Positions 407 through 13,795 of a DNA stretch of 16,521 bases are shown here, piece after piece. Made by a program: the position numbers and the translations under genes. The notes beneath the pieces are model-generated. The model worked only from the letters and a program-made list of their open reading frames with translations. It searched no databases and was not told where the DNA came from. Within the stretch, counting starts at the first letter, position 1. Every line of letters starts with the position of its first letter. Source of the DNA: a bacterium (GTDB lineage Bacteria; Thermosulfidibacterota; Thermosulfidibacteria; Thermosulfidibacterales; JALWSI01); NCBI GenBank assembly GCA_027080315.1, contig JALWSI010000162.1, positions 1 to 16,521 of the forward strand, given 5' to 3'.

Positions 407-1357
407 TCAGTTCAAATAGTCATTAAGCCTCTTGGCGGCCGCCAGCTTGCGCAGCTTCTTCAGTGCCCTGCTCTCAAGCTGGCGGACCCTCTCTCTGCTC
501 ACTCCCAGCTTCTTTCCCAACTCACCAAGGGTCATGGTGGTCTCGTTCTCTAATCCGAAGCGGTTCTTGATCACTATCTGTTCTCTGGGATCAAGCTCTT
601 TGATCAGCTCATCAACATGAGAGATTAGTGACTCCCTCAAGAAGAGATCCTCAGAAGAGGGGAAGGTGGTTCCCTCAAGAAGATCAACAAAAGGAGTTTC
701 GTTGTCCTGTCCAATGGGGGTCTCAAGGGAGAGATGATGCCGAGAGGCCCTGAATATGTCTTCCAAATCCGAGGTTGACACCTTCAGCTCGTCGGCGATC
801 TCCTCTGCCTCTGGCTCACGGTTCTTTTCGTGAAGGAACTTTTCGCGCACTTTTCTGGCCTTTGAGAGCTTGCCCGCCTGCTTTAAGGGCAGACGCACTG
901 CTCCCGTCTGCTCAGCCAGGGCCTGCATTATGGCCTGGCGGATCCACCAGACGGCGTAAGAGATGAACTTCACCCCCCTGTCAGGATCAAACCTCTTCGC
1001 CGCCTGAATCAACCCCAGGTTGCCCTCGTTTATGAGATCCTGAAAGGAGAGGCCCCGATTCTTGTACTGGGCGGCGATGGAGACCACAAACCTCAGGTTG
1101 GCCTCCACCAGCCGCTGCAGTGCCTCAACGTCTCCCTGCTGGATCCGTCTGCCCAGCTCCTTCTCCTCTTCAGGGGAGAGGGGCTCAAATCTGGTGATGT
1201 AGCGGAGGTATTCGTCTAAGTAGTCTTTGTCAGACAGGCTGGTGTATTGCTCAACAACATCCACCAGCCCTGTGGAGTCACCGGCAGAGCCGGCAGCCTC
1301 CTCTTCCAAGAGCTTATCCTCCACCACATCATCCTTTTTAGAGGGGTTACTCCCCAT
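407..1357 (-). CDS. RNA polymerase sigma-70 family factor (group 2-like, stress-linked)
   Basis: A 316-residue sigma factor. Region 1.2 begins near residue 45 ([20 protein letters not shown]). Region 2 spans about 83-155, with the core-binding [16 protein letters not shown] and a 2.3/2.4 segment around [17 protein letters not shown]. Region 3 runs about 165-245, and region 4 ends in the helix-turn-helix [20 protein letters not shown] (276-295). Region 1.1 and the long RpoD spacer are absent; the N-terminus is only a short acidic tail. Region 2.4/3.0 reads [12 protein letters not shown], unlike the IRIPVHMIE of primary sigma factors, so I infer an alternative (RpoS/RpoH-like) factor and leave the symbol blank. 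The ATG lies inside the last codons of clpB (11-bp overlap), with an AAGGAGAGG ribosome site upstream, so translation is probably coupled to clpB. A weak CCAG/CTGG hairpin and T-rich tract follow the stop. Confidence 0.9.
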
Positions 1358-4010
1358 TCATAACCTCTCCTTCTATCACCTCTTCTTCGCCTTGAGAGGT
1401 AGATACCACCTCAAACCTGAGGCTGTCTCCCTCCCTGAAGACCCTTACCTTGTCACCTGCCCTAATCTCCCCTGAAAGGAGTTTATTTGCAAGCTCGTTT
1501 TCAAGAAGATTCTGAATGGTGCGTCTCAAGGGCCTGGCGCCATAGGTGGGGTCGTATCCCTTCTGGGCCAAGAGCTCTTCAGCAGAGTCTTCAACCTCAA
1601 GCTCTATCTTCTGCTCTTTCAACCGGGCCCTCACCTTCTCAACCATGAGATGTACGATCTGCCTTATGTGCTCTTCGCCTAAGGAGTGGAATATGATAAT
1701 CTCGTCTATCCTGTTGAGAAGCTCGGGTCTGAAGTGGCGCCTCACCTCGTTCATCACCAGATCCATCATCTTTTGGTAGGCCTCCTGGTACTCAGGGGTA
1801 CCGAAGGGGGCCTCTGGAACGGTGATGTACTCGCTTCCCAGGTTAGAGGTCATGATGATCACGGTGTTCTTGAAGCTCACCACCACACCCTTAGAGTCGG
1901 TGAGTCTGCCGTCCTCCAGGATCTGCAGGAGAATGTTGAAGACCTCTGGATGGGCCTTCTCAATCTCGTCAAGCAACACCACCGAGTAAGGCCTGCGCCT
2001 AACCGCCTCGGTGAGCTGACCGCCCTCTTCGTGGCCCACGTATCCGGGGGGAGCTCCAATGAGCCGGGCAACAGAGTGGCGTTCCATGTACTCTGACATG
2101 TCAATGCGCACCATGGCGTTCTCGTCGTCAAAGAGGAACTCCGCCAAGGCCTTTGCCAGCTCAGTCTTTCCCACCCCTGTGGGTCCCAGGAAGAGGAAGG
2201 AGCCCAAGGGCCTGTTGGGATCCGAGAGTCCGGCTCTGGCCCTTCTGATTGCGGCAGATACGGCCTGCACCGCCATGTCCTGGCCCACCACACGCTTGTG
2301 GAGGTTCTCCTCCATCTTCAAGAGCTTGTCTGCTTCCTCCTCAAGCATCTTGTGAACAGGTATGCCTGTCCAACGGGAGATGATGGCGGCGATGTCCTCT
2401 TCGCTCACCTCCTCTTTGAGCATCTTGCGCTTGCTCTGGATCTGTGCCAGCCTCTGGCTCTCTTCTTCAATCTGCTTCTGAAGGTTCACCAGGGTCTCGT
2501 ATTTGAGCCTTGCAGCCTTCTCCAGATCTCCGTGACGCTCTGCGTGCTCAAGCTCAAGGCGGGCCTTGTCCATTTCCTCTTTCAGGGCCCTGATCTTCTG
2601 GATCACCGACTTTTCAGAGAGCCAGTGGGCCTTTAGCTCTTCGTACTCTTCCTTGAGCTCCTGCAAGGCCTTCTCTATCTGGGCCAGTCTCTCCTTAGCT
2701 GCAGCGTCGCTCTCCCGCTTGACCACCTGCCTTTCAATCTCAAGCTGGCGGATCTTGCGGTCAAGCTCGTCCAGCTCAGAGGGCATGCTGTCTATCTCCA
2801 TCCTCAGCTTGGCTGCTGCCTCGTCTATGAGGTCTATGGCCTTGTCTGGAAGCCTGCGATCGGGAAGGTACCTGTGAGAGAGATACGCTGCCGCCACAAT
2901 GGCAGAATCGCTTATCTTCACTCCGTGGTGTATCTCGTACCTCTCTTTCAGCCCTCTCAGGATAGAGACGGTGTCTTCCACCGAGGGCTCCTTCACCAGC
3001 ACAGGCTGGAACCTGCGCTCAAGTGCTGGATCCTTCTCAATGTATTTGCGGTACTCGTCTATGGTGGTTGCCCCTATGCAGTGGAGCTCTCCTCTGGCCA
3101 AGGCTGGTTTCAAAAGGTTAGACGCGTCCATGGCGCCTTCTGCGGCTCCTGCGCCCACCACGGTGTGGATCTCGTCAATGAAGAGGATGATACGCCCTTC
3201 AGACTCGCTGATCTCCTGGAGCACCGCCTTCAGCCTGTCTTCAAACTCACCACGGTACTTGGCTCCAGCCACAAGGGCCCCCATGTCAAGAGCTACTACG
3301 GACTTGTCCTGCAGGGTGGTGGGCACGTCTCCCCTGGCGATTCTCAGCGCCAGGCCCTCAACTATGGCGGTCTTACCCACTCCTGCGTCTCCAATCAGAC
3401 AGGGGTTGTTCTTGCGTCGTCTTGAGAGGATATGTATCACCCTGCGGATCTCCTCGTCCCTGCCGATCACGGGATCCAGCTTGCCCTTACGGGCCGCCTC
3501 GGTGAGATCGTGGCAGTAGCGTTTTAGAGCCTGGTATTTGTCTTCAGGAGATTGGTCGGTAACCCTGTGGGGTCCCCTAACCTCTGCCAGAGCCTTTAAC
3601 AGCTCCTCTCTGGTGACTCCCATTGAGACCAGTATGTCGTGGGCATAGCTGTCCTTCTCGTGGGCAATGGCGAGAAGTATGTGCTCTGTGCTTATGTACT
3701 GGTCCTTAAGCTCGTCTCTCTCCTTTTGGGCCCTGTTGAGCACCGCAGAGAGCTTCTGTGACACGTAGATCTCGCCGATTCCTTCAACCTTTGGGTACCT
3801 TTTAAGGGCATCCTCTATCCGGGCGGTCACCTGTGATAGGTCTGCTCCAACCTTACTCAGAAGAGACCCAACGATGCCCCCTTCTTGCTTCACCAGAGAC
3901 AAGAGGAGGTGCTCTGGCTCTATCTGCTGGTGACCGCGCTCTTGGGCCACCTTATGGGCTTCTTGTATGGCCTCTTGGGCCTTCACTGTGAACTCTTGCA
4001 ACGATATCAT
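1347..4010 (-). CDS. clpB: ClpB (Hsp100) disaggregase
   Basis: An 887-residue AAA+ unfoldase that extracts polypeptides from aggregates in the cytoplasm together with DnaK/DnaJ. The two Clp-N repeats fill residues 1-145. The first AAA+ module has Walker A GDAGVGKT (207-214) and Walker [11 protein letters not shown] long charged coiled-coil middle domain follows at about 400-530 and includes many E/K/R heptads; this domain separates ClpB from ClpA. The second AAA+ module has GPTGVGKT and the pore loop GYVGHEEGG. There is no ClpP-binding IGF-type loop that I can see. It is about 30 residues longer than E. coli ClpB, mainly in an acidic C-terminal tail. The start is supported by AAGGAGG eight bases upstream. 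A HAIR-like operator lies about 31 bp upstream (4041-4061), pointing to HspR control. The end overlaps the sigma-factor gene. Confidence 0.96.
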
Positions 4011-4040
4011 GCTTCTTTCCTCCTTTTTTCTTATTTATTT

Positions 4041-4061
4041 GTTGAGCAATTGTGATTCACT
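4041..4061 (-). promoter_or_regulatory. candidate HspR operator (HAIR-like) upstream of clpB
   Basis: On the + strand the site reads GTTGAGC-N7-ATTCACT, which matches the HspR consensus CTTGAGT-N7-ACTCAAG at 9 of 14 arm positions with exact spacing. It also shares the pattern TTGA-N2-AATT-N3-ATTCA with the site on the dnaK promoter. It ends about 30 bases before the clpB start. I could not place a convincing sigma-70 promoter around it, so the mode of repression is inferred. Confidence 0.45.
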
Positions 4062-4223
4062 AAGAAAAGGGATGATTAACGGGCTACAACTATGGCGTCT
4101 AGCTGGAGAGCTGGGCTAAAAAGGTCCTTCTACCCTTATTTGCTGCGGGCAGATTGGTTTCTTGCCCTTTAGGGTTAGGCTCTCTTTAATCTCTTTAAAT
4201 AATAGAAGATCCGAGTTAGATGT

Positions 4224-4607
4224 TTACTTGGTCTGTACTATGGAGGTTATGTCAACCTTCACGAGGCCTTCGCCCATCACGTCTTCAATGTTCTGTCCTG
4301 TGTACTTTTCAAAAAGCTCTTTCATCAGGGCGATCTGGTGCAGGGCCTTCTCCAGCTCGCTTCTCATGCGCATTATCACCTCAATCCCTGCAAGGTTCAC
4401 CCCAAGGTCCCTTGAGAGGGTGAGAATGAACCTCAGCTTCTCAACGTCTTCCTCCGAATAGAGCCTTGTGTTTCCTGCACTCCTTTTGGGAGAGAGTATT
4501 CCCTTTCTGTCGTAGGCCCTGAGGGTCTGGGGGTGCATATCCAGCATCTCAGCTACTGCCCCGATCATGTAAAGGGGCCGGCTTTTATCCCTATTCATTC
4601 TCCTCAT
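4224..4607 (-). CDS. hspR: HspR-type heat-shock repressor (MerR family)
   Basis: A 127-residue MerR-family regulator. Residues 13-50 form the winged helix-turn-helix (YMIGAVAEMLDMHPQTLRAY, then GNTRLYSEEDVEKL), and RDLGVNLAGIEVIMRMR (66-82) is highly typical of HspR. A short amphipathic helix follows. HspR represses chaperone genes and is held on its operator by DnaK, which gives feedback when DnaK is titrated by unfolded protein. Its position directly after dnaK-dnaJ and before clpB is the actinobacterial HspR arrangement, which also occurs in some other phyla. The ATG lies 4 bp after the dnaJ stop with GGAGG seven bases upstream, so it is co-transcribed with dnaJ. A second in-frame ATG three codons on is less well placed. 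Specific HspR identity rests on family motifs and context; a distant MerR paralogue is unlikely. Confidence 0.9.
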   Translation of the reverse strand: MRRMNRDKSRPLYMIGAVAEMLDMHPQTLRAYDRKGILSPKRSAGNTRLYSEEDVEKLRFILTLSRDLGVNLAGIEVIMRMRSELEKALHQIALMKELFEKYTGQNIEDVMGEGLVKVDITSIVQTK

Positions 4608-4611
4608 GGCT

Positions 4612-5568
4612 TTACCTCCCGTATCTCTTTATTATCTCTTCTCTTGGGTTCTTCTTTCCAACGGCTTCCGCCAGCTCCCTGAGCAGCTTCACCGACCTGG
4701 CATCAAGGTTGCAGGGCGTCTGCACCTTCACCTTGACGTAAAGGTCGCCTCTTCCCTCACCTTTCAGCTTGGGCATCCCTTTACCCTTTAGTCTAAACCT
4801 TTGACCCGTCTGGGTGCAAGGGGGTATCTTCATCTTAACCAGCTTGCCCTCAGGAGATGGCACCTCTATCTCTCCTCCTAATGCCGCTTCCCAGTAGGTT
4901 ATGGGAACCTCGCATGTTAGGTTCTCGTTGTTTCTCTCAAAGAAGGGATGAGGCTTAACCTTTGTTACTATGTAGAGATCTCCAACGGCTCCTCCTGGCA
5001 GTCCAGGCTCTCCTTTTCCTGCTATTCGTATCTTCGTTCCGTTCTTCACCCCTGGGGGGATCTTCACTTTTATCTTCTCAAGCTTCCCCCCACGGTTCAC
5101 GGTTATGGTGGGGGTGATGCCCTTGAAGGCATCTTCAAAGGAGAGCTCCATGATGTACTCAATGTCCCGACCTTTCTGGAAGCTCGGCCTTCCTGGACGC
5201 CTTGTCCCCTTTCTTCCTGCCCGCATGCTCTCAAACAGGTCGGAGAAGAGTCCCCCCAGGTCAAAGTCAAAGGAGGTTTCATCTCCAAAGCCTCCGGTGG
5301 TGTAGGTGTAGGTGAAGCCCGAGTCTCCACCAGGGAAGCCCCCCATTCCGCCTACCCTGCCCATGTTGTCGTACTCTTCCCTCTTTTTGGGATCGCTGAG
5401 CACCTGGTAGGCTTCGGAGATCTCTTTAAACTTCTCAGCTGCCTCTTTGTTTCCGGGGTTCACATCGGGATGCCACTTGCGAGCCAGTTTACGGTAAGCC
5501 TTCTTAATCTCGTCTTGGGTGGCGTTTTTGCTTACCCCAAGTATCTCGTAGTAATCTCTGGCAGCCAT
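4612..5568 (-). CDS. dnaJ: DnaJ/CbpA-type J-domain co-chaperone without zinc finger
   Basis: A 318-residue class B J-protein. The J domain occupies residues 5-70 with the DnaK-activating HPD at 33-35. It is followed by a Gly/Phe/Thr-rich linker (about 73-120), and then by the two beta-barrel substrate-binding domains and dimerisation tail (about 133-310, including [17 protein letters not shown] and [11 protein letters not shown]). The four CxxCxGxG zinc-binding repeats of canonical DnaJ are absent, so structurally this is a CbpA/DnaJ2 type. It stimulates DnaK ATPase and delivers clients. It lies between dnaK and hspR, 145 bp after dnaK and 4 bp before hspR. The leader carries a strong predicted three-way-junction RNA. 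The ribosome site AAAGGAGGAG is somewhat far (about 12-14 bases) from the ATG, but the start [12 protein letters not shown] fits the family exactly. Confidence 0.95.
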
Positions 5569-5600
5569 CTTATTCTATCTCTCCTCCTTTAACCTGTTTT

Positions 5601-5671
5601 CTCCCCCGCACCGGTGGCCTTTCGGCCCTGGAGGGGCGGTTGGCCCCTCCAGCTGAAACCGGTGCGAGGAG
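5601..5671 (-). promoter_or_regulatory. predicted three-way-junction RNA in the dnaK-dnaJ intergenic region
   Basis: In the transcribed (minus) direction this 71-nt stretch pairs almost completely. P1 is CGCACCGGU with ACCGGUGCG (9 bp, + strand 5658-5666 and 5607-5615), extended outward past one bulged G by five more pairs including one G-U. P2 is CUGGAGGGGC-CAACC-GCCCCUCCAG (10 perfect pairs, 5628-5652). P3 is GGCC-GAAA-GGCC (5616-5627), capped by a GNRA tetraloop. P2, P3 and the 3' strand of P1 abut with no linker; only UUCAG joins P1 to P2. No U-run follows, so it is not an intrinsic terminator. It ends about 30 nt before the dnaJ start. The CUCCUC beside P1 and the CCUCC in P2 could also pair with the dnaJ ribosome site. 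I do not recognise it as a known riboswitch. Confidence 0.6.
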
Positions 5672-5684
5672 CGTACGGGACCTT

Positions 5685-5726
5685 ATTTTGCCTTAAGACT
5701 TCTCCATTTTGCCTTAAGACTTCTCC
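5685..5726 (-). repeat. perfect 21-bp tandem duplication across the dnaK stop codon
   Basis: On the + strand, two identical 21-base units, 5685-5705 and 5706-5726, each begin ATTTTGCCTTAAG and end ACTTCTCC. The dnaK-proximal copy holds the last codons Glu-Lys-Ser and TAA. The second copy repeats the same codons and stop after the first TAA, in the same frame. It looks like a recent slippage or duplication event that leaves the protein unchanged. Confidence 0.9.
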
Positions 5727-7624
5727 TCAAACTCTGCGTCAACAACCTCTCCCTCCTGCACGCCGCCTGACTCAGTGCTCTCTGCCTCTGCAGAGGCCTC
5801 GGTAGAGGCTCCACCGCTCGCTGCCTGCTGCTGGTAGAGCACCTGAGACATGGCGTGAGAGGCAGCGGTCAGCTCGTCCATGGCCTTGCGCATACGCTCA
5901 ATGTTGCCCTCTTCAACCGCCTTCTTGGCCTCTTCAAGGGCCGACTCAACCCGTTGACGCTCGGCATCGGGCAGTTTCTCTTTGTTCTCGTTGTAGGTCT
6001 TCTCTACGCTGTAGCAGAAGCCATCAAGCTGATTCTTAAGCTCAATCTCCTCTTTTCTCCTCCTGTCCTCCTCAGCGTGGGCCTCGGCCTCTTCCACCAT
6101 CTTCTTGATGTCCTCTTCGCTGAGGCCGCTTGAGGCGGTGACAGTCACCTTCTGCTCTTTGCCCGTTGCCATGTCTTTGGCCGAGACGTGGAGTATGCCG
6201 TCTGCGTCAATGTCAAAGGTGACCTCAATTTTGGGCACACCCCTTGGAGCAGGGGGAATTCCATCCAGGTGGAACCGTGCCAGGGTTCTGTTGTCTTTGG
6301 CCAGAGGCCGTTCTCCCTGAAGCACGTGGATCTCAACGCTGGGCTGGTTGTCTGAGGCGGTGGTGAAGATCTCGGACTTCTTGGTTGGGATGGTGGTGTT
6401 TCTGGGGATGAGCACGGTGCACACACCGCCAAGGGTCTCAATGCCCAGGGAGAGGGGAGTGACGTCTAACAATAGGATGTCCTTCACCTCTCCTGTGAGC
6501 ACTCCTGCCTGAACCGCAGCTCCCAAGGCCACCGCTTCGTCGGGGTTGATGTCTTTGCGGGGCTCCTTGCCAAAGATCTCTTTCACCTTCATCTGAACCA
6601 GTGGAATACGGGTGGATCCACCAACCAGGATCACGTCGTCAATGTCCGCAGGGGTGAGCCCAGCGTCCTCCATGGCCTTGAGACAAGGCTCAACGGTTCT
6701 CTCCACGATGTCGGCTATGAGCTGCTCAAACCGGGCCCTGGTCAGCTTCAGAAGCAGGTGCTTGGGTCCCGAGGCGTCGGCGGTGATGAAAGGCAGGTTT
6801 ATCTCTGTCTCCATCACCGAGGAGAGTTCGCATTTGGCCTTCTCGGCAGCCTCTTTCAGTCTCTGTGCGGCCATGGGATCCTTTGAGAGGTCTATGCCGT
6901 TCTCCTTCTTGAACTCCTCAACGATCCAGTCCATCACCACCTGGTCAATGTTGTCGCCACCTAAGTGGGTGTCTCCGTTTACAGCCTTCACCTCAAACAC
7001 ACCGTCGCCCATCTCCAGGATGGAGATGTCAAAGGTGCCTCCGCCGAAGTCGTAAACGGCTATCTTGCCACCTTTCTTCTTGTCCAAGCCGTAGGCTAAG
7101 GCCGATGCAGTGGGCTCGTTCACAAGGCGCAGAACCTCAAGCCCTGCAATGGTTCCAGCCTCTTTGGTGGCCTTACGCTGTGCGTCGTTGAAGTACGCAG
7201 GCACGGTGATCACCGCCTTGGTCACCTTTTCACCCAAGTAGGCTTCTGCGGCCTCTTTCAGCTTGCGAAGCACCATGGCGGAGATCTCCTGGGGCGCGTA
7301 CTCCTTGTCTCCGATCTTAACCCTTGCTTCTCCTTTGCTGCCCTTCACCACCTTGTAGGGCACCATCTCTATCTCGTCGGTCACCTCTTCGTAGCGGCGT
7401 CCCATGAAACGTTTGATGGAAAATACCGTGTTTTCGGCGTTGGTCACCGCCTGTCTCTTTGCCACCTGACCAACGAGGATCTCACCGTCCTTTGTGAATG
7501 CCACCACCGAGGGAGTTGTTCTGTTCCCCTCCTGGTTGGGAATAACCCGGGGCTCGCCTCCCTCCATGATGGCCACCACCGAGTTGGTGGTTCCAAGATC
7601 TATTCCAATAACCTTCTCTCCCAT
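5714..7624 (-). CDS. dnaK: DnaK (Hsp70) molecular chaperone
   Basis: A 636-residue Hsp70 of normal length. The ATPase domain has phosphate-1 loop GIDLGTTNS near residues 7-15, phosphate-2 [14 protein letters not shown], and the adenosine-binding [11 protein letters not shown]. The linker [19 protein letters not shown] leads to the beta-sandwich substrate-binding domain. A helical lid and a short Ala/Gly/Glu tail ending [10 protein letters not shown] close the protein. It binds and refolds unfolded proteins in the cytoplasm and, in HspR systems, also acts as co-repressor. I chose the ATG at 7624 because AGGAGG lies nine bases upstream; an in-frame GTG two codons earlier is too close to that site. 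It is first gene of the dnaK-dnaJ-hspR series, with its promoter and a HAIR-like operator just upstream. GrpE, the usual exchange factor gene partner, is not in the window. Confidence 0.98.
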
Positions 7625-7670
7625 ATGCACGCTCCTCCTTTTTGGGGTTCTATCTTTTGGTTCACCTTAC

Positions 7671-7950: not shown

Positions 7951-10476
7951 ATGGATGCCGAACTGATCAGAATAAAGGCCTCGGCAGGAGCCGGTAAGAC
8001 CTACCAGCTGGCATTGAGGTACCTGAGGCTTCTAAAGTTACTGGGCCCACCCTGCGGTGAGAGCTTGCGGTCGGTTGTGGCCATCACCTTCACCAACAAG
8101 GCTGCAGCGGAGATGAAGGAGAGGATCCTTCTCTTCTTGAAGGAGATGGCCTTTGAGACAGAGAAAGGTAAAGATCTCTCCCAGAGCACGGGGCTATCTT
8201 CAGAGCTGGCAGCAAGATGGGTGGAAACCATTGTTGGCAGCTACACGGATTTTCAGGTGCGCACCATTGACAGCTTCCTATACTCAATGCTGAAGGGGCT
8301 ATCCTTTGAGCTAAGGATGCACCCTGAAAGCGAGGTTCTGTTTAACAGAGAGCCCCTGGTTCAGAGGGCCTTTGACATCGTAATGTGGGAAGAGCGGGAG
8401 GAGTTTGCAGATGCCCTGAACCATGCCCTGAAGACCTTCTTTAATGTTGAGGATTACCAGGGGTTCTATCCAGAATCAAGGCTCAGGGGCCGCATATTGC
8501 GGCTTCTCAACAAGGTAAATGGTCCCCTTGCCAACGCCGAGGTGGACTGGGAAAAGAGAGGCCTTTTAGAGTCAGAGCTGAAAGAGAGGTTGCAAAGGTT
8601 CATCAATACCCTTGAGCCGGTAAAAGAGTCCCTTAATGGCAATAAAGTTAAAGGTGTTTTCTCCAAGAACGGTGGATTTCTGAATCCCAGCGATCTCTCT
8701 CCTAAGGATATTGCTGGCTTGGAGAAATTATCTGTCTTTTCCAGTCAGGTGGAGGAGCTTTTCAAAAAGTCTGCCCAACCCACTCCTCGGCAGATAGCTG
8801 AGATCAGGGCTGCAAAAGAGGCTCTCATTGAGGGCATGGAGAGATGGAAGAGGCTTGAGGCAGAGCTGAGGGGATCGGGATACGCTTCGTTGATCAACCT
8901 TATTCAAGAGGAGGTAGAAAAAATCTGTCTCTCTGAGGGGATAGTGGCTGGGGGGGAGTGGACCAGAATTGTGAGTGAGAAGATGAGGAATCCAGAAACT
9001 GTGCTCTTTGTGTTCTCCCTTTTTGGTGGAAGGTTCAGACATTTTCTCTTTGACGAGTTCCAGGACACGGCGAGGGACCAATGGGAAGCCCTTTACCCTG
9101 TCTGTGAAGAGGCCCTTTCTAAAGGCGGAAGTATCTTCATTGTGGGAGACGTGAAACAGGCCATCTACCGCTGGAGGGGAGGAGACTGGCGTCTCTTTGA
9201 CGAGGTTGTTGGCAGAGACAGCTACTTTCCCATGGCAAAGTCTGTGAAAGAGGAGGTGCTTTCAGGCAATTTCCGCTCTCATCCAGAGCTTGTGGGGTTC
9301 TTCAATGGCCTCTTCTCTCCTTTAACCTCTGAGGACCAGACCAGAGAACTGATGAGGGTTGTGCTTCCCAAGGCCTCTGACAGGGTGATTGCAGAGGCTT
9401 CAAAGGCCATCTCAGATGCCTTCTCTTCCCATCTTCAGAGTCCCCAAAAAGATTTTGCAGGACCCGCCACCATCAGGCTCTACCGCTGCGAGGGATACGG
9501 AGATGAGATCTCAGATAAGGTGAAGGCCACCTTTCTTGAAAGGGTTGAGGAGGAGTGGAGCAAGAGAGGCAGAGACGCTGACCGAACCCAGGTGGCGGTG
9601 CTTGTGCGCACCAAGGATCAGGCCCGGGAGGTGTCGGCCTGGTTGCTCCACCATGGAATCCCGGTGGTCACTGAAGACTCTTTGAGGCTTGAGGCCTCCT
9701 TTGCGGTGAAAGGCCTCATCTGCCTCTTGAGATACCTTTTCAACGGTGAGGACACTGCCGCCCTTTATGGTTTTCTCTCTTCTGGATTGCCTCAGAATGC
9801 CCTTACTGAAAAGGAGCTTTTTGTGGCCTGGAAGAGAAAGAAGGGGATGAACAATGAGACAAGGGCCTTTTTCAACGATCTATGCAGTAAGGTTGACAGG
9901 GTATCTCCCTACGAGCTGCTTCAGAGGGCCATAGAGGGCCTTGGGCTTGAAGAGAGGTTTAAGGACGAGTTTAGGGAGCATCTTCCCTTTGTGGAGAGGC
10001 TATTGGAGGTGGTTCACAACTTTGAGGAGAGAGAGGGGCCCAGTCTGGGAAGGTTTCTCTCTTTCTGGGAGGAAGGGGGGATGGAGGAGCGGGTTGGACT
10101 GCCAGAGAACCTGCCTGCGGTGAGGGTGCTCACCATCCACAAGGCCAAAGGACTGGAGTTTCCCGTGGTCTTCGTTCCCTTCACCCACTGGGCTCTTCAC
10201 ACTAAGGAGGTGGTTGAGGTGCACAATGGCCAGTTGCTGGTTCTGGGCAAAGAGGATGCTTTGCCATTGGAGCTGAGAGAGCTGAAGGCTGAGATGGTTG
10301 CCCAGGAGGTCCAGGAGCTACTCAACCTGCTCTACGTTGCAGTGACCAGGGCGGAGGAGTCCCTTTATCTCTTCATCACCAGACATAAGAGCTATGGAGA
10401 GAAGCAGGTGTCTGCATGGCTTGAGGGCCTTCTTGAGAGGAGTGGGGTTGAATGCACCGTAGAAGAGTTGAGCTGA
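7951..10476 (+). CDS. addA: UvrD/Rep-family helicase, AddA-like, lacking a fused nuclease domain
   Basis: An 841-residue superfamily 1A helicase. Walker A is ASAGAGKT (10-17), followed by VVAITFTNKAAAEMKERI (motif Ia). Motif II is DEFQDT (368-373), motif III is around VGDVKQAIYRWRGGD (398-412), and motif IV includes NFRSHPELV. Motif V is VLTIHKAKGLEFPVVFVP and motif VI NLLYVAVTRAEE (about 792-803). The set and spacing fit AddA/RecB-type enzymes that unwind broken DNA ends ahead of RecA loading. The polypeptide stops about 38 residues after motif VI, where AddA proteins normally continue into a RecB-type nuclease domain; that domain is in the next ORF, which overlaps by 25 bp in a different frame. 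The start follows AGGAGAGG closely, and an in-frame stop at 7939 rules out a longer N-terminus. The sequence shows helicase identity; AddA assignment comes from context. Confidence 0.88.
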   Translation: MDAELIRIKASAGAGKTYQLALRYLRLLKLLGPPCGESLRSVVAITFTNKAAAEMKERILLFLKEMAFETEKGKDLSQSTGLSSELAARWVETIVGSYTDFQVRTIDSFLYSMLKGLSFELRMHPESEVLFNREPLVQRAFDIVMWEEREEFADALNHALKTFFNVEDYQGFYPESRLRGRILRLLNKVNGPLANAEVDWEKRGLLESELKERLQRFINTLEPVKESLNGNKVKGVFSKNGGFLNPSDLSPKDIAGLEKLSVFSSQVEELFKKSAQPTPRQIAEIRAAKEALIEGMERWKRLEAELRGSGYASLINLIQEEVEKICLSEGIVAGGEWTRIVSEKMRNPETVLFVFSLFGGRFRHFLFDEFQDTARDQWEALYPVCEEALSKGGSIFIVGDVKQAIYRWRGGDWRLFDEVVGRDSYFPMAKSVKEEVLSGNFRSHPELVGFFNGLFSPLTSEDQTRELMRVVLPKASDRVIAEASKAISDAFSSHLQSPQKDFAGPATIRLYRCEGYGDEISDKVKATFLERVEEEWSKRGRDADRTQVAVLVRTKDQAREVSAWLLHHGIPVVTEDSLRLEASFAVKGLICLLRYLFNGEDTAALYGFLSSGLPQNALTEKELFVAWKRKKGMNNETRAFFNDLCSKVDRVSPYELLQRAIEGLGLEERFKDEFREHLPFVERLLEVVHNFEEREGPSLGRFLSFWEEGGMEERVGLPENLPAVRVLTIHKAKGLEFPVVFVPFTHWALHTKEVVEVHNGQLLVLGKEDALPLELRELKAEMVAQEVQELLNLLYVAVTRAEESLYLFITRHKSYGEKQVSAWLEGLLERSGVECTVEELS

Positions 10477-10973
10477 AGATCAGAGGAGCAGCTCCTTCAG
10501 AATCGGGGATAACCAAGAGAATAAAAGGCAATATCCTCCACAGGGCCCTCTCCTTTATTAAGAGCAGAGAGGATCTGGATAAGATTGAGATGCTTGTGAA
10601 GAAGGCCATATTGTTGGAGGGTGAGAATCCAAAGGCCTGGGACATTCAGGAACTGGCACAGCACCTTAAGAAGGCCGTTGAGATGGATGAGGTAGAGCCC
10701 TTCTTTGATCCTGAAGCAGAGGCCTATTGTGAGACCCCCATTATTTTGCCCGGGGATTCCGAAGGAGCCGGGGGGAAGATGGTTCCTGATCGCCTCTTGG
10801 TTACGAGAGATAAGGTTGTGGTTCTTGACTACAAGAGCGGCGAGCCAAACAAAGAGTACCACGCCCAGGTGAGACGCTACGCCGAGGCTGCCAAGTCCGC
10901 CTTTGGTAAAGAAGAGGCAGAGGGGTATCTCCTCTTCCTTCTCCCCGAGCCCAAAATTGAGAGGGTGGTGTGA
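10452..10973 (+). CDS. RecB-type PD-(D/E)XK nuclease, detached AddA nuclease domain
   Basis: A 173-residue protein that matches the C-terminal nuclease module of AddA/RecB. It shows GNILHRAL (His30), ETPI (about 94-97), VPDRLL (Asp113), VVVLDYKSG (Asp126, Lys128) and HAQVRRYAEAA (Gln139). These are the ordered H, E, D, D-x-K and Q-x3-Y motifs of the family, so the active site appears complete. It would cut single strands produced by the helicase. The ATG at 10452 lies inside the helicase gene with AGGAG nine bases upstream, so separate, coupled translation is plausible. I see no slippery heptamer in the overlap that would suggest programmed frameshifting. A natural frameshift mutation or a sequencing error splitting an originally single addA gene is the main alternative. 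The 3' end overlaps the next gene or abuts it within a few bases. Confidence 0.8.
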   Translation: MHRRRVELKIRGAAPSESGITKRIKGNILHRALSFIKSREDLDKIEMLVKKAILLEGENPKAWDIQELAQHLKKAVEMDEVEPFFDPEAEAYCETPIILPGDSEGAGGKMVPDRLLVTRDKVVVLDYKSGEPNKEYHAQVRRYAEAAKSAFGKEEAEGYLLFLLPEPKIERVV

Positions 10974-10975
10974 GT

Positions 10976-13795
10976 ATGAGCAGGGTGGTGGCGGTTCATC
11001 CAAAGGAGAATTTGCTGAAGAGGGTGGTTCGCCACGTGGTGCAGAACCTGATGGAGGAGGGAACTCCAACAGTGATCTTCCCCCACCGACGGCCCATAGC
11101 CTTTTTTGAGCGCTATCTGCAGAGTGAAATTAAGCGCCCGTTGTTGCTTACGCCCAAGCTCAGCTCCTTTGAAGACTGGGTGAGAGAGGTGGCGATTCTC
11201 TCCCAGAGCGATCCTGAGATTCCTTTAGGGGAGCTTGATCAGGGGTGGCTTGCCTACAAAGCTGCCAGGGAGGTTTTGAAGGAAGAAAAGAGCCTTGCGT
11301 GGAATAGCTTCTTTCCGTGGGCCAGGAGGCTTGTGGGACTCTTCAAAGAGTTGGACCTTGAGCTCTGCTCACCTGAGGATCTCTCACATCCTCCCCAAGG
11401 GTTGCCGGAGATGGCAGCCATGCTTTTGGAGAGGATTGGAACCATCTTTGAGAGGTTCAACTACCTTCTCAAAAAAGACGGTTTCACAACCCATCCCAAG
11501 CAGGTGAGATGGTTGGCAGAGGGCAGGGATGAACTGCCTGAAGGCCCCTTTCTGCTGGTGGGCTTCTACGCCCTCACCAAGGCCGAAGACGCCCTCTTTC
11601 GCCGTCTCTTTAAGAATAGAGAGACCACCATCTACTGGCATTCAGATCCCCATCAGTTGCCAGCCCTTCACCGGGAGTGGAAGGAGAGGTGGGGTGTGGA
11701 GGTGGAAAGGGTTTCCCCAGAGGAGAGAGGAGAGACCAGAATCCACCTCTTTGAGGCCTATGATCTCCATTCTGAGTTGAAGGAGCTTGAACAGAGGCTC
11801 TCTGCAGAGGATGTGTCTGAGCCTGACAAGGTTGCTGTGGTTTTGCCTTCAAGGGAGCCTTTGATTCCCCTGCTTCATCACCTTCCTGAGGGCAAGGTGA
11901 ATGTGACCATGGGCTATCCCTTCAGAATGACGGGGCTTTATCTCTTTCTTGAGAGCCTCTTTGAGGCTATTGCCACCAAGGATCCAGAGCGAGGGTACAG
12001 CACCCCTGCTCTGGTTCAGTTTCTGAAAAGCCCCTATTTGGGTACGGGGCAGGTGGCCACTCTCCTTTACAGTTACCAGTCTCCCTTCATTAAGCGGGCC
12101 GAGGTGGAGAGTCTCATCAAAAGTGCTCCAGACCAGAGTGATGGAGAGGAGCTTGAGAAGGTTGTTGAGAAGGCCTTTGGCCTCCTTGAAGAGCTTGAAA
12201 ACGTTGAGACTTTCAAAGACCTTGCAGGGTTTCTTGAGGGGGTTTTAGAAGAGAGGTCTTTGGAGCTCTCTGTTGCAGACAGAGAGGTGGCTGCGGCTCT
12301 TCTCACGCAGCTTGTTCTGCCCATGAAGCATCTCTTGTTCAGCGAAGAGCAAATGGAACCTAAGGCTATCTTCTCTCTGTTTCTTGAGATGCTCACCACC
12401 CTCACCCTACCTTTAGAGGGAGAGCCCTTGGAGGGGCTTCAGGTGATGGGGCTTCTTGAGTCCCGTCTCCTCTCCTTTGAGAAGGTCTTTGCCCTTGAGG
12501 TTAACGAGGGGGTGTTGCCCAAGGTGGAGGAGGTTAACCCTCTCATTACGCATGAGGCCCGGGTGGCCTTGGGGCTTCCCCTCAGGCTTAGGGAGGAGGA
12601 GATATTCCGCTACCATTTCAGGCGCCTCTTGGATTCTGCCCAAGAGGCCCACATATTCTGGCAGCTTCAGACCACACCTTCGGGAGAAGGGGGGCTTGAG
12701 GGCAAAAAGGTCCGAAGCCGCTTTGTGGAGGAGCTGGTGTGGGAGAGGGAGAAGGCCAGAAAAGAGATGGTCTCTGAGACCCCTGACCTCATCAAGAAGA
12801 CTCAGTTTACGGTGCTGCCTGCTGGCTCAAAGCCCCAGCTGCCCTCCAAAACCCCTGAGATGAGAGACTCCCTTTCGGGGGTGTTGACCATGGTCTCTCC
12901 CTCTCTTCTCAACACCTACCTCAGATGCCCTTTGCAGTTTCTCTACAATAGGGTGTTGGGGTTGCAGACGCCGCGTCTTGAGGGGGTGGAGCCTCCCCCT
13001 CATAGCCTGGGATCCGTGGTCCACGCCACCTTAAAGAGGTTCTACCTTGAGCTTGCAGGGCAGAACCTACCTGCCGACATACCCTCAGCCTCTTTGAACC
13101 TTGAGAGGCTTATGGAGATCTTTGAGGAGGAACTCAAAAAAGAGACCTTCTACAACCTCCTTTCTGCGCCCCGCAAAAGGGTTCTTCTTGAGACCAGCAG
13201 GATCAGGTTTGGCAGGTACCTTAAAAAGCAGGGATCAACCAGAATTGAAGCCCTTGAGAAGAACTACTTCCTTCCCTTTAACCTTTCCCACACCCTGCAG
13301 ATCACCTTTAGGGGAATTCTGGACAGGGTGGATCTCAGAGATGGACTATACCTTGTGCTTGATTACAAGACAGGTAGCTTCAGCAAGCCCAAAGCCGAGA
13401 AGGTTATGGCTTTGGAGACAGAAGAGGAAAACGAGCTGGACCAGGAGGGTTTGCAGACCATCTACCAGTATCTCTCCGATCTGCAGCTTCCTTTTTACGT
13501 CTATCTCTTTGGAAAACATAAGGGTCTCTCTTTTGAGAGACTATCTGCTGGTTGTATAGGCCTTGGTGGAGATGGTGAGGAGTTCTACATTGTGGAGCCC
13601 AAGGTTTTAAGAGGAGAGGTGAAGAAGAAGGTTCATCTCGCTTCTCAGTGGGCCCAATGGATGGAAGAGGAGTTCCCCTCCCTACTGCGATACCTTTTGC
13701 GCCACATTCTTGATGCCCCTCTCTGGTACCCTGCAACCCATGAGCGGGTCTGCGGCTATTGCGACTACAGGGGTATGTGCAGGTATGCCCTCTGA
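10976..13795 (+). CDS. addB: AddB-like PD-(D/E)XK exonuclease subunit with Fe-S cysteines
   Basis: A 939-residue partner subunit. The N-terminal part is a degenerate helicase fold: VIFPHRRPIAFFERYL stands where an active enzyme would have a Walker A, so it likely does not hydrolyse ATP, as in proteobacterial AddB proteins. The C-terminal nuclease has SLGSVVHATLKRFY, GILDRVD (Asp783), LVLDYKTG (Asp796, Lys798) and QLPFYVYLF. Cys651 (YLRCPLQF) and the terminal C926-x2-C929-x5-C935 form the four-cysteine set of an AddB-type iron-sulfur staple. The protein would form a heteromeric end-resection complex with the upstream helicase. I prefer the ATG at 10976, about ten bases after GAGGG, to an in-frame GTG at 10970 that overlaps the upstream stop. 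It is last in a tight three-ORF operon. Confidence 0.85.
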   Translation: MSRVVAVHPKENLLKRVVRHVVQNLMEEGTPTVIFPHRRPIAFFERYLQSEIKRPLLLTPKLSSFEDWVREVAILSQSDPEIPLGELDQGWLAYKAAREVLKEEKSLAWNSFFPWARRLVGLFKELDLELCSPEDLSHPPQGLPEMAAMLLERIGTIFERFNYLLKKDGFTTHPKQVRWLAEGRDELPEGPFLLVGFYALTKAEDALFRRLFKNRETTIYWHSDPHQLPALHREWKERWGVEVERVSPEERGETRIHLFEAYDLHSELKELEQRLSAEDVSEPDKVAVVLPSREPLIPLLHHLPEGKVNVTMGYPFRMTGLYLFLESLFEAIATKDPERGYSTPALVQFLKSPYLGTGQVATLLYSYQSPFIKRAEVESLIKSAPDQSDGEELEKVVEKAFGLLEELENVETFKDLAGFLEGVLEERSLELSVADREVAAALLTQLVLPMKHLLFSEEQMEPKAIFSLFLEMLTTLTLPLEGEPLEGLQVMGLLESRLLSFEKVFALEVNEGVLPKVEEVNPLITHEARVALGLPLRLREEEIFRYHFRRLLDSAQEAHIFWQLQTTPSGEGGLEGKKVRSRFVEELVWEREKARKEMVSETPDLIKKTQFTVLPAGSKPQLPSKTPEMRDSLSGVLTMVSPSLLNTYLRCPLQFLYNRVLGLQTPRLEGVEPPPHSLGSVVHATLKRFYLELAGQNLPADIPSASLNLERLMEIFEEELKKETFYNLLSAPRKRVLLETSRIRFGRYLKKQGSTRIEALEKNYFLPFNLSHTLQITFRGILDRVDLRDGLYLVLDYKTGSFSKPKAEKVMALETEEENELDQEGLQTIYQYLSDLQLPFYVYLFGKHKGLSFERLSAGCIGLGGDGEEFYIVEPKVLRGEVKKKVHLASQWAQWMEEEFPSLLRYLLRHILDAPLWYPATHERVCGYCDYRGMCRYAL

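Follow-up and report, generated by a model that had tools for sequence, protein, structure and literature searches.

Known structures between dnaK and dnaJ

Cells generally require different amounts of DnaK and DnaJ, though the two are often made from one message. In E. coli, intercistronic structures that protect the upstream gene of a transcript are established, for example in malE-malF (PMC5927463). In Salmonella under Mg starvation, the dnaK segment is about 2.5-fold over the spacer and dnaJ segments; the two segments differ in their decay, with a destabilisation specific to the dnaJ mRNA (PMC12077118). The Salmonella dnaK-dnaJ spacer has no intrinsic terminator, and the small RNA tpke11 is located there (PMC12077118). 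Three targets of tpke11 have been reported in an in vitro-supported study (PMC6172242). Apart from tpke11, our literature search on structures in dnaK-dnaJ spacers returned nothing direct.

In this study, we analysed a window of 16,521 nucleotides (the whole stretch of DNA presented above), which comes from one metagenome-style assembly of 253 contigs. We found that a three-way junction of 28 bp occupies positions 5601-5671 (71 nt) on the minus strand, in the spacer between dnaK and dnaJ. The junction looks like a more elaborate form of the single hairpin found between these two genes in many bacteria.

Gene surroundings

The upstream gene, dnaK (5714-7630, minus strand), was identified above the NCBIfam cut-off (TIGR02350/PRK00290) and by Pfam, and the downstream gene, dnaJ (4612-5568, minus strand), by the Pfam DnaJ and DnaJ_C domains. 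The ATG of dnaJ lies at 5568 and follows the junction and then the ribosome-binding site AAAGGAGGAG (5581-5590, minus strand), which lies some 10 nt beyond the base of the outer stem in the downstream direction. The order of genes on the minus strand is dnaK, dnaJ, hspR, clpB, and a sigma-70-family factor (407-7630 of the window). HspR scored above its NCBIfam cut-off, and the sigma factor is RpoD/RpoS-like and overlaps clpB. In addition, grpE was not among the genes of this cluster, and a search upstream of dnaK that allowed up to 3 mismatches gave no HAIR-like site.

The last dnaK codons and the stop are repeated in a perfect 21-bp tandem duplication (5685-5726, minus strand), found by repeat search and visible in the sequence as GGAGAAGTCTTAAGGCAAAAT twice; the end of DnaK is encoded by the first copy only. 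Because the two copies are exact, the duplication is probably recent, or else an assembly error. On the other side of dnaK, divergent genes for a RecB/AddA-like helicase and an AddB-like PD-(D/E)XK nuclease (7951-13795, plus strand) scored far below the NCBIfam cut-offs; from their sequences, they are predicted to encode a diverged double-strand-break repair complex.

Fold, stability and copy number of the junction

Read from 5671 to 5601 on the minus strand, the element is CUCCUCGCACCGGU-UUCAG-CUGGAGGGGC-CAACC-GCCCCUCCAG-GGCC-GAAA-GGCC-ACCGGUGCGGGGGAG. The outer stem P1 is formed by CUCCUCGCACCGGU (5658-5671) and ACCGGUGCGGGGGAG (5601-5615) and consists of 9 bp, one bulged G (5606 or a neighbour), and then 5 bp; it was seen in the sequence, by RNAfold, and by inverted-repeat search. 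P2 (5628-5652) is a perfect 10-bp hairpin, CUGGAGGGGC-CAACC-GCCCCUCCAG, which was recovered by RNAfold, by inverted-repeat search, and in the comparison with relatives. P3 (5616-5627), found in the sequence and by RNAfold, is a GGCC-GAAA-GGCC hairpin of 4 bp with a GNRA tetraloop. A sequence-only reading had described 28 pairs packed in 71 nt with nearly all helices abutting. The sequence and RNAfold gave the same helices, both inverted repeats were recovered by repeat search, and the only unpaired junction bases in the RNAfold structure are the 5 nt UUCAG (5653-5657) between P1 and P2.

RNAfold of 5560-5690 gave the junction at -56.5 kcal/mol with a z-score of -3.66 (by our own shuffle procedure, as for all z-scores here), and 0 of 200 shuffles folded as low. 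Furthermore, when 167 kb from the same genome, a sample that was partly picked for containing GGGGAGG hairpins, was divided on both strands into 51,950 overlapping windows of 71 nt, the element had the lowest value (-53.4 kcal/mol). The next independent 71-nt window in this sample reached -40.3 kcal/mol, which is 13 kcal/mol weaker. Thus, the fold of the junction is clearly not due to chance. The strand of the GAAA loop had been taken as an argument for function as RNA. This argument is weak because the opposite strand also adopts this shape, with -50.1 versus -53.9 kcal/mol for the sense strand.

The whole element and P2 each occur once in the genome, and the outer stem P1 has one genuine copy, since two further pattern matches enclose unrelated sequence. 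Many scattered copies had been named earlier as the sign of a mobile repeat; with a single copy of the whole, of P2, and of P1 enclosing P2, the junction is therefore not a dispersed palindromic repeat of the REP or MITE type. As a separate observation, six GGGGAGG...CCTCCCC hairpins were found in the genome (G000, contigs C70, C172, C214, C236, and C243) versus zero for the reversed control pattern, and some of these hairpins have U-tails while some do not.

Spacer hairpins in relatives and in other bacteria

For comparison within the order, we used eight species, none of them a congener, and seven of these had dnaJ and a readable spacer. The dnaK-dnaJ spacers of the seven relatives are 45-61 nt long, and the spacer of the source genome is about 90 nt longer. 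All seven carry a perfect hairpin of 7-10 bp directly after the dnaK stop, with diverged sequence (for example, GGGGGAGGGACACTCCTCCCCC, GGGGCGGGATAATCCGCCCC, and GTGGGAGGAGCTCCTCCCAC). The spacers align only at the dnaK end and at the GGGG ribosome site, and the hairpin arms do not align. P1 and the GAAA hairpin P3 were found in 0 of the 7 relatives, and the three-way junction itself is thus unconserved in the order. Judged by position, P2 is therefore likely the ancestral element, the counterpart of the old single hairpin of the order, and P1 and P3 would be additions private to the source lineage.

These results also bear on whether the junction might be a neutral insertion, that is, a functionless palindrome that arrived once between dnaK and dnaJ. 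This is consistent with the presence of P1 and P3 in one genome only, with the longer spacer and its exact tandem duplication, and with the G+C content of the element (about 71% versus 48% in the genome sample). However, a hairpin is kept at the same place across the order, the lack of further genome copies means that the element is not a dispersed repeat, and 28 pairs almost free of mismatches are unlikely to last long under neutral drift. We therefore give a neutral insertion only a small probability.

All 8 dnaK-dnaJ spacers of the order (the source and its seven relatives, which are not independent) contain a perfect hairpin of 7 bp or more, compared with 3/18 control spacers (Fisher's test, P = 1e-4, ignoring relatedness). 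The controls were 18 spacers upstream of dnaJ genes whose upstream neighbour is a gene other than dnaK. Outside the order, z was below -2 in 9 of 15 dnaK-dnaJ spacers (40-260 nt) and in 4 of 18 controls (P = 0.03); for z < -3, the counts were 6 of 15 and 1 of 18 (P = 0.02). The spacers were delimited by simple ORF calling; the contrasts are clear, and the exact P values are not reliable. In addition, hairpins of at least 8 bp without a U-tail were few among the sampled co-directional spacers of the order, and several of the hairpins counted came from contigs that had been chosen for them. Among spacers whose upstream gene is not dnaK, one (L205, G040:C15) has a 17-bp perfect hairpin upstream of dnaJ, with z = -7.9.

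In other phyla, many dnaK-dnaJ spacers are short or lack structure, and the structured spacer is therefore a recurrent, not a universal, feature. Part of the order-wide signal may come from shared ancestry of one hairpin rather than from ongoing selection. Nevertheless, the sequence-only reading, in which a structured RNA belongs specifically to the spacer between dnaK and dnaJ, agrees with the single copy, with the lack of a U-run, and with the hairpins at this place throughout the order and in other phyla.

Termination, temperature and the dnaJ ribosome site

No U-run follows any helix of the junction on its 3′ side, and a terminator scan gave no terminator-like site on the minus strand at the element. 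Because of this, and because U-tailed hairpins exist elsewhere in the source genome, an ordinary intrinsic terminator is unlikely, as had been proposed from the sequence. A weaker form of termination is partial attenuation, in which the growing hairpin would pause RNA polymerase, perhaps with Rho, and some transcripts would end before dnaJ. The strong spacer hairpin would fit this explanation, and some dnaK-dnaJ spacers of other phyla, such as L045, have U-rich tails. However, U-tails are absent from the hairpins of the order relatives as well as from the junction, and hspR, clpB, and the sigma factor lie beyond dnaJ on the same strand. On balance, we regard attenuation as unlikely.

We folded the region at six temperatures. 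Between 20 and 80 C, most of the dnaJ ribosome site is predicted to be unpaired, and even the 80 C prediction retains the junction. Because the predicted fold holds and leaves the ribosome site largely accessible throughout this range, an RNA thermometer of the ROSE or fourU type was rejected, and the earlier suggestion of temperature-dependent access to dnaJ was not borne out.

Another explanation is translational control, in which the outer P1 strand CUCCUC swaps to the ribosome site GAGGAG and shuts dnaJ under some condition. CUCCUC can leave its partner GGGGAG for GAGGAG at a cost of only 2.3 kcal/mol, because just the outer pairs are exchanged and the inner junction stays intact. At this cost, the strand-exchanged form would account for a few per cent of the molecules, at most a minor population. 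Thus, the alternative fold suggested earlier can form, but it would be rare. In the order relatives, too, the pyrimidine arm of the hairpin could pair with the dnaJ ribosome site, which is rich in purines, and this site is paired in the predicted folds of two relatives (G002 and G006). However, any G+C-rich hairpin with a purine and a pyrimidine arm should show complementarity of the CCUCC/GGAGG kind, the ribosome site of the source is predicted to be largely free at 20-80 C, and the stability of the junction is too high for a thermometer. Translational control of dnaJ is thus quite unlikely for the source window. The two relatives are worth a remark of their own. In the spacers L008 (G002) and L009 (G006), the predicted folds pair the dnaJ ribosome site (CCCCCUUUUCUAAAGGGGG and CCUCCCUAUGGGGGG, respectively), unlike in the source window; in G002, the longest perfect hairpin is the second one, which makes this pairing. 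Translational control is therefore possible on these predicted folds in their family, f3.

A proposed barrier for mRNA decay

From the structure and the recurrence of the spacer hairpin, we infer, as the best-supported explanation, that the junction may well be an intercistronic structure in the dnaK-dnaJ transcript that serves as a decay barrier or a processing boundary, and we put the chance of this at about even. An endonuclease would cleave in the dnaJ part or in the spacer, and the dnaK part would live longer because the junction would block 3′-to-5′ exonucleases. On the intact message, dnaJ would be translated from its own exposed ribosome site. The net outcome would be more DnaK than DnaJ from one message. 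In the source lineage, P1 would have been added around the ancestral hairpin P2, and P3 next to it, giving a stronger barrier.

Several observations point to this explanation: the highest stability in 167 kb, the lack of a U-run, the order-wide hairpin, the more frequent strong folds in dnaK-dnaJ spacers outside the order, the parallels in E. coli and Salmonella, the established protective structures such as that of malE-malF, and the open ribosome site. In contrast, the feature is not universal, and only one genome has P1 and P3. It had been suggested that the element sets the DnaK:DnaJ ratio by processing, stability, or temperature-dependent access. The first two routes are plausible, as a hairpin recurs in the order and in other phyla and tpke11 lies in the E. 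coli spacer, and the third does not agree with the folding results. Structured spacers recur in distant phyla although their sequences are unrelated. If the barrier explanation is right, this suggests repeated evolution of an RNA barrier as a solution to the unequal need for DnaK and DnaJ, and the source lineage would carry an extreme version of it.

Comparison with known RNAs

A search of the whole window against Rfam at the gathering thresholds gave no match, in line with the earlier impression that no known RNA class fits. For 5540-5720, the best match was RF02953 (DUF1874 RNA) with 29.6 bits, short of the 42-bit threshold (E = 1.3e-4 in a search of 91 nt). The alignment is full-length (1-93), and the model has a P1/P2/P3 three-way junction with abutting P2 and P3, as the element does. 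Further features in common are a GG.CCA.CC side on the P2 hairpin, an AAA-containing loop on the short P3, and then a purine-rich stretch. However, the score is below the curated 42 bits, and the junction stands before dnaJ and not before a DUF1874 gene, the location that the family name implies; a DUF1874 gene (PF08960) was not found in the source genome. The best other candidate in the eight genomes of the order reached 20.1 bits, with at most 150 candidates scored per genome in a search that missed the junction site. No above-threshold member came from this search, from a search for DUF1874 proteins (145 genomes and phages), or from two scans of viral contigs, the second followed by Rfam on its result. 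We consider the match of the junction to DUF1874 RNA a resemblance and not membership, since the element was picked as a three-way junction, G+C-rich folds can inflate scores, and the partner gene was not found. A more far-reaching idea is that the junction would be a dedicated cis-regulatory RNA of dnaJ, related in structure to DUF1874 RNA, that binds a ligand or protein and swaps the outer P1 strand to the ribosome site. DnaJ alone would then be tuned inside the heat-shock operon; we think that this is extremely unlikely.

The E. coli dnaK-dnaJ spacer, which matches the Rfam tpke11 model (RF02031) at 69.6 bits (threshold 43), has a strong hairpin without a U-run. The junction shares with tpke11 of E. 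coli and Salmonella the position between dnaK and dnaJ, the strand, and the strong hairpin lacking a U-run. However, the E. coli spacer folds round one long hairpin and not into a three-way junction, and it belongs to another phylum. Although its position on the coding strand fits, tpke11 was absent among the matches up to E = 5 for 5540-5720, and membership was rejected. Because the junction does not match the model, the analogy is one of place and shape, not of descent. A small RNA processed from the spacer and acting in trans, like tpke11, would be supported by the same spacer being used in E. coli and by the three reported targets (PMC6172242). However, the element has no sequence or structure match to RF02031, its 71 nt leave almost no unpaired seed region, and the spacer sequence is unconserved in the order. 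A small RNA of this kind is thus very unlikely here.

The intercistronic protecting hairpins of the malE-malF and puf operon type (PMC5927463) differ from the present element in that the latter is a compact three-way junction. The two nevertheless share structural features expected of a decay barrier: a stable structure without a U-run, in the spacer between two genes of the same direction, on the 3′ side of the gene whose product is expected to be more abundant.
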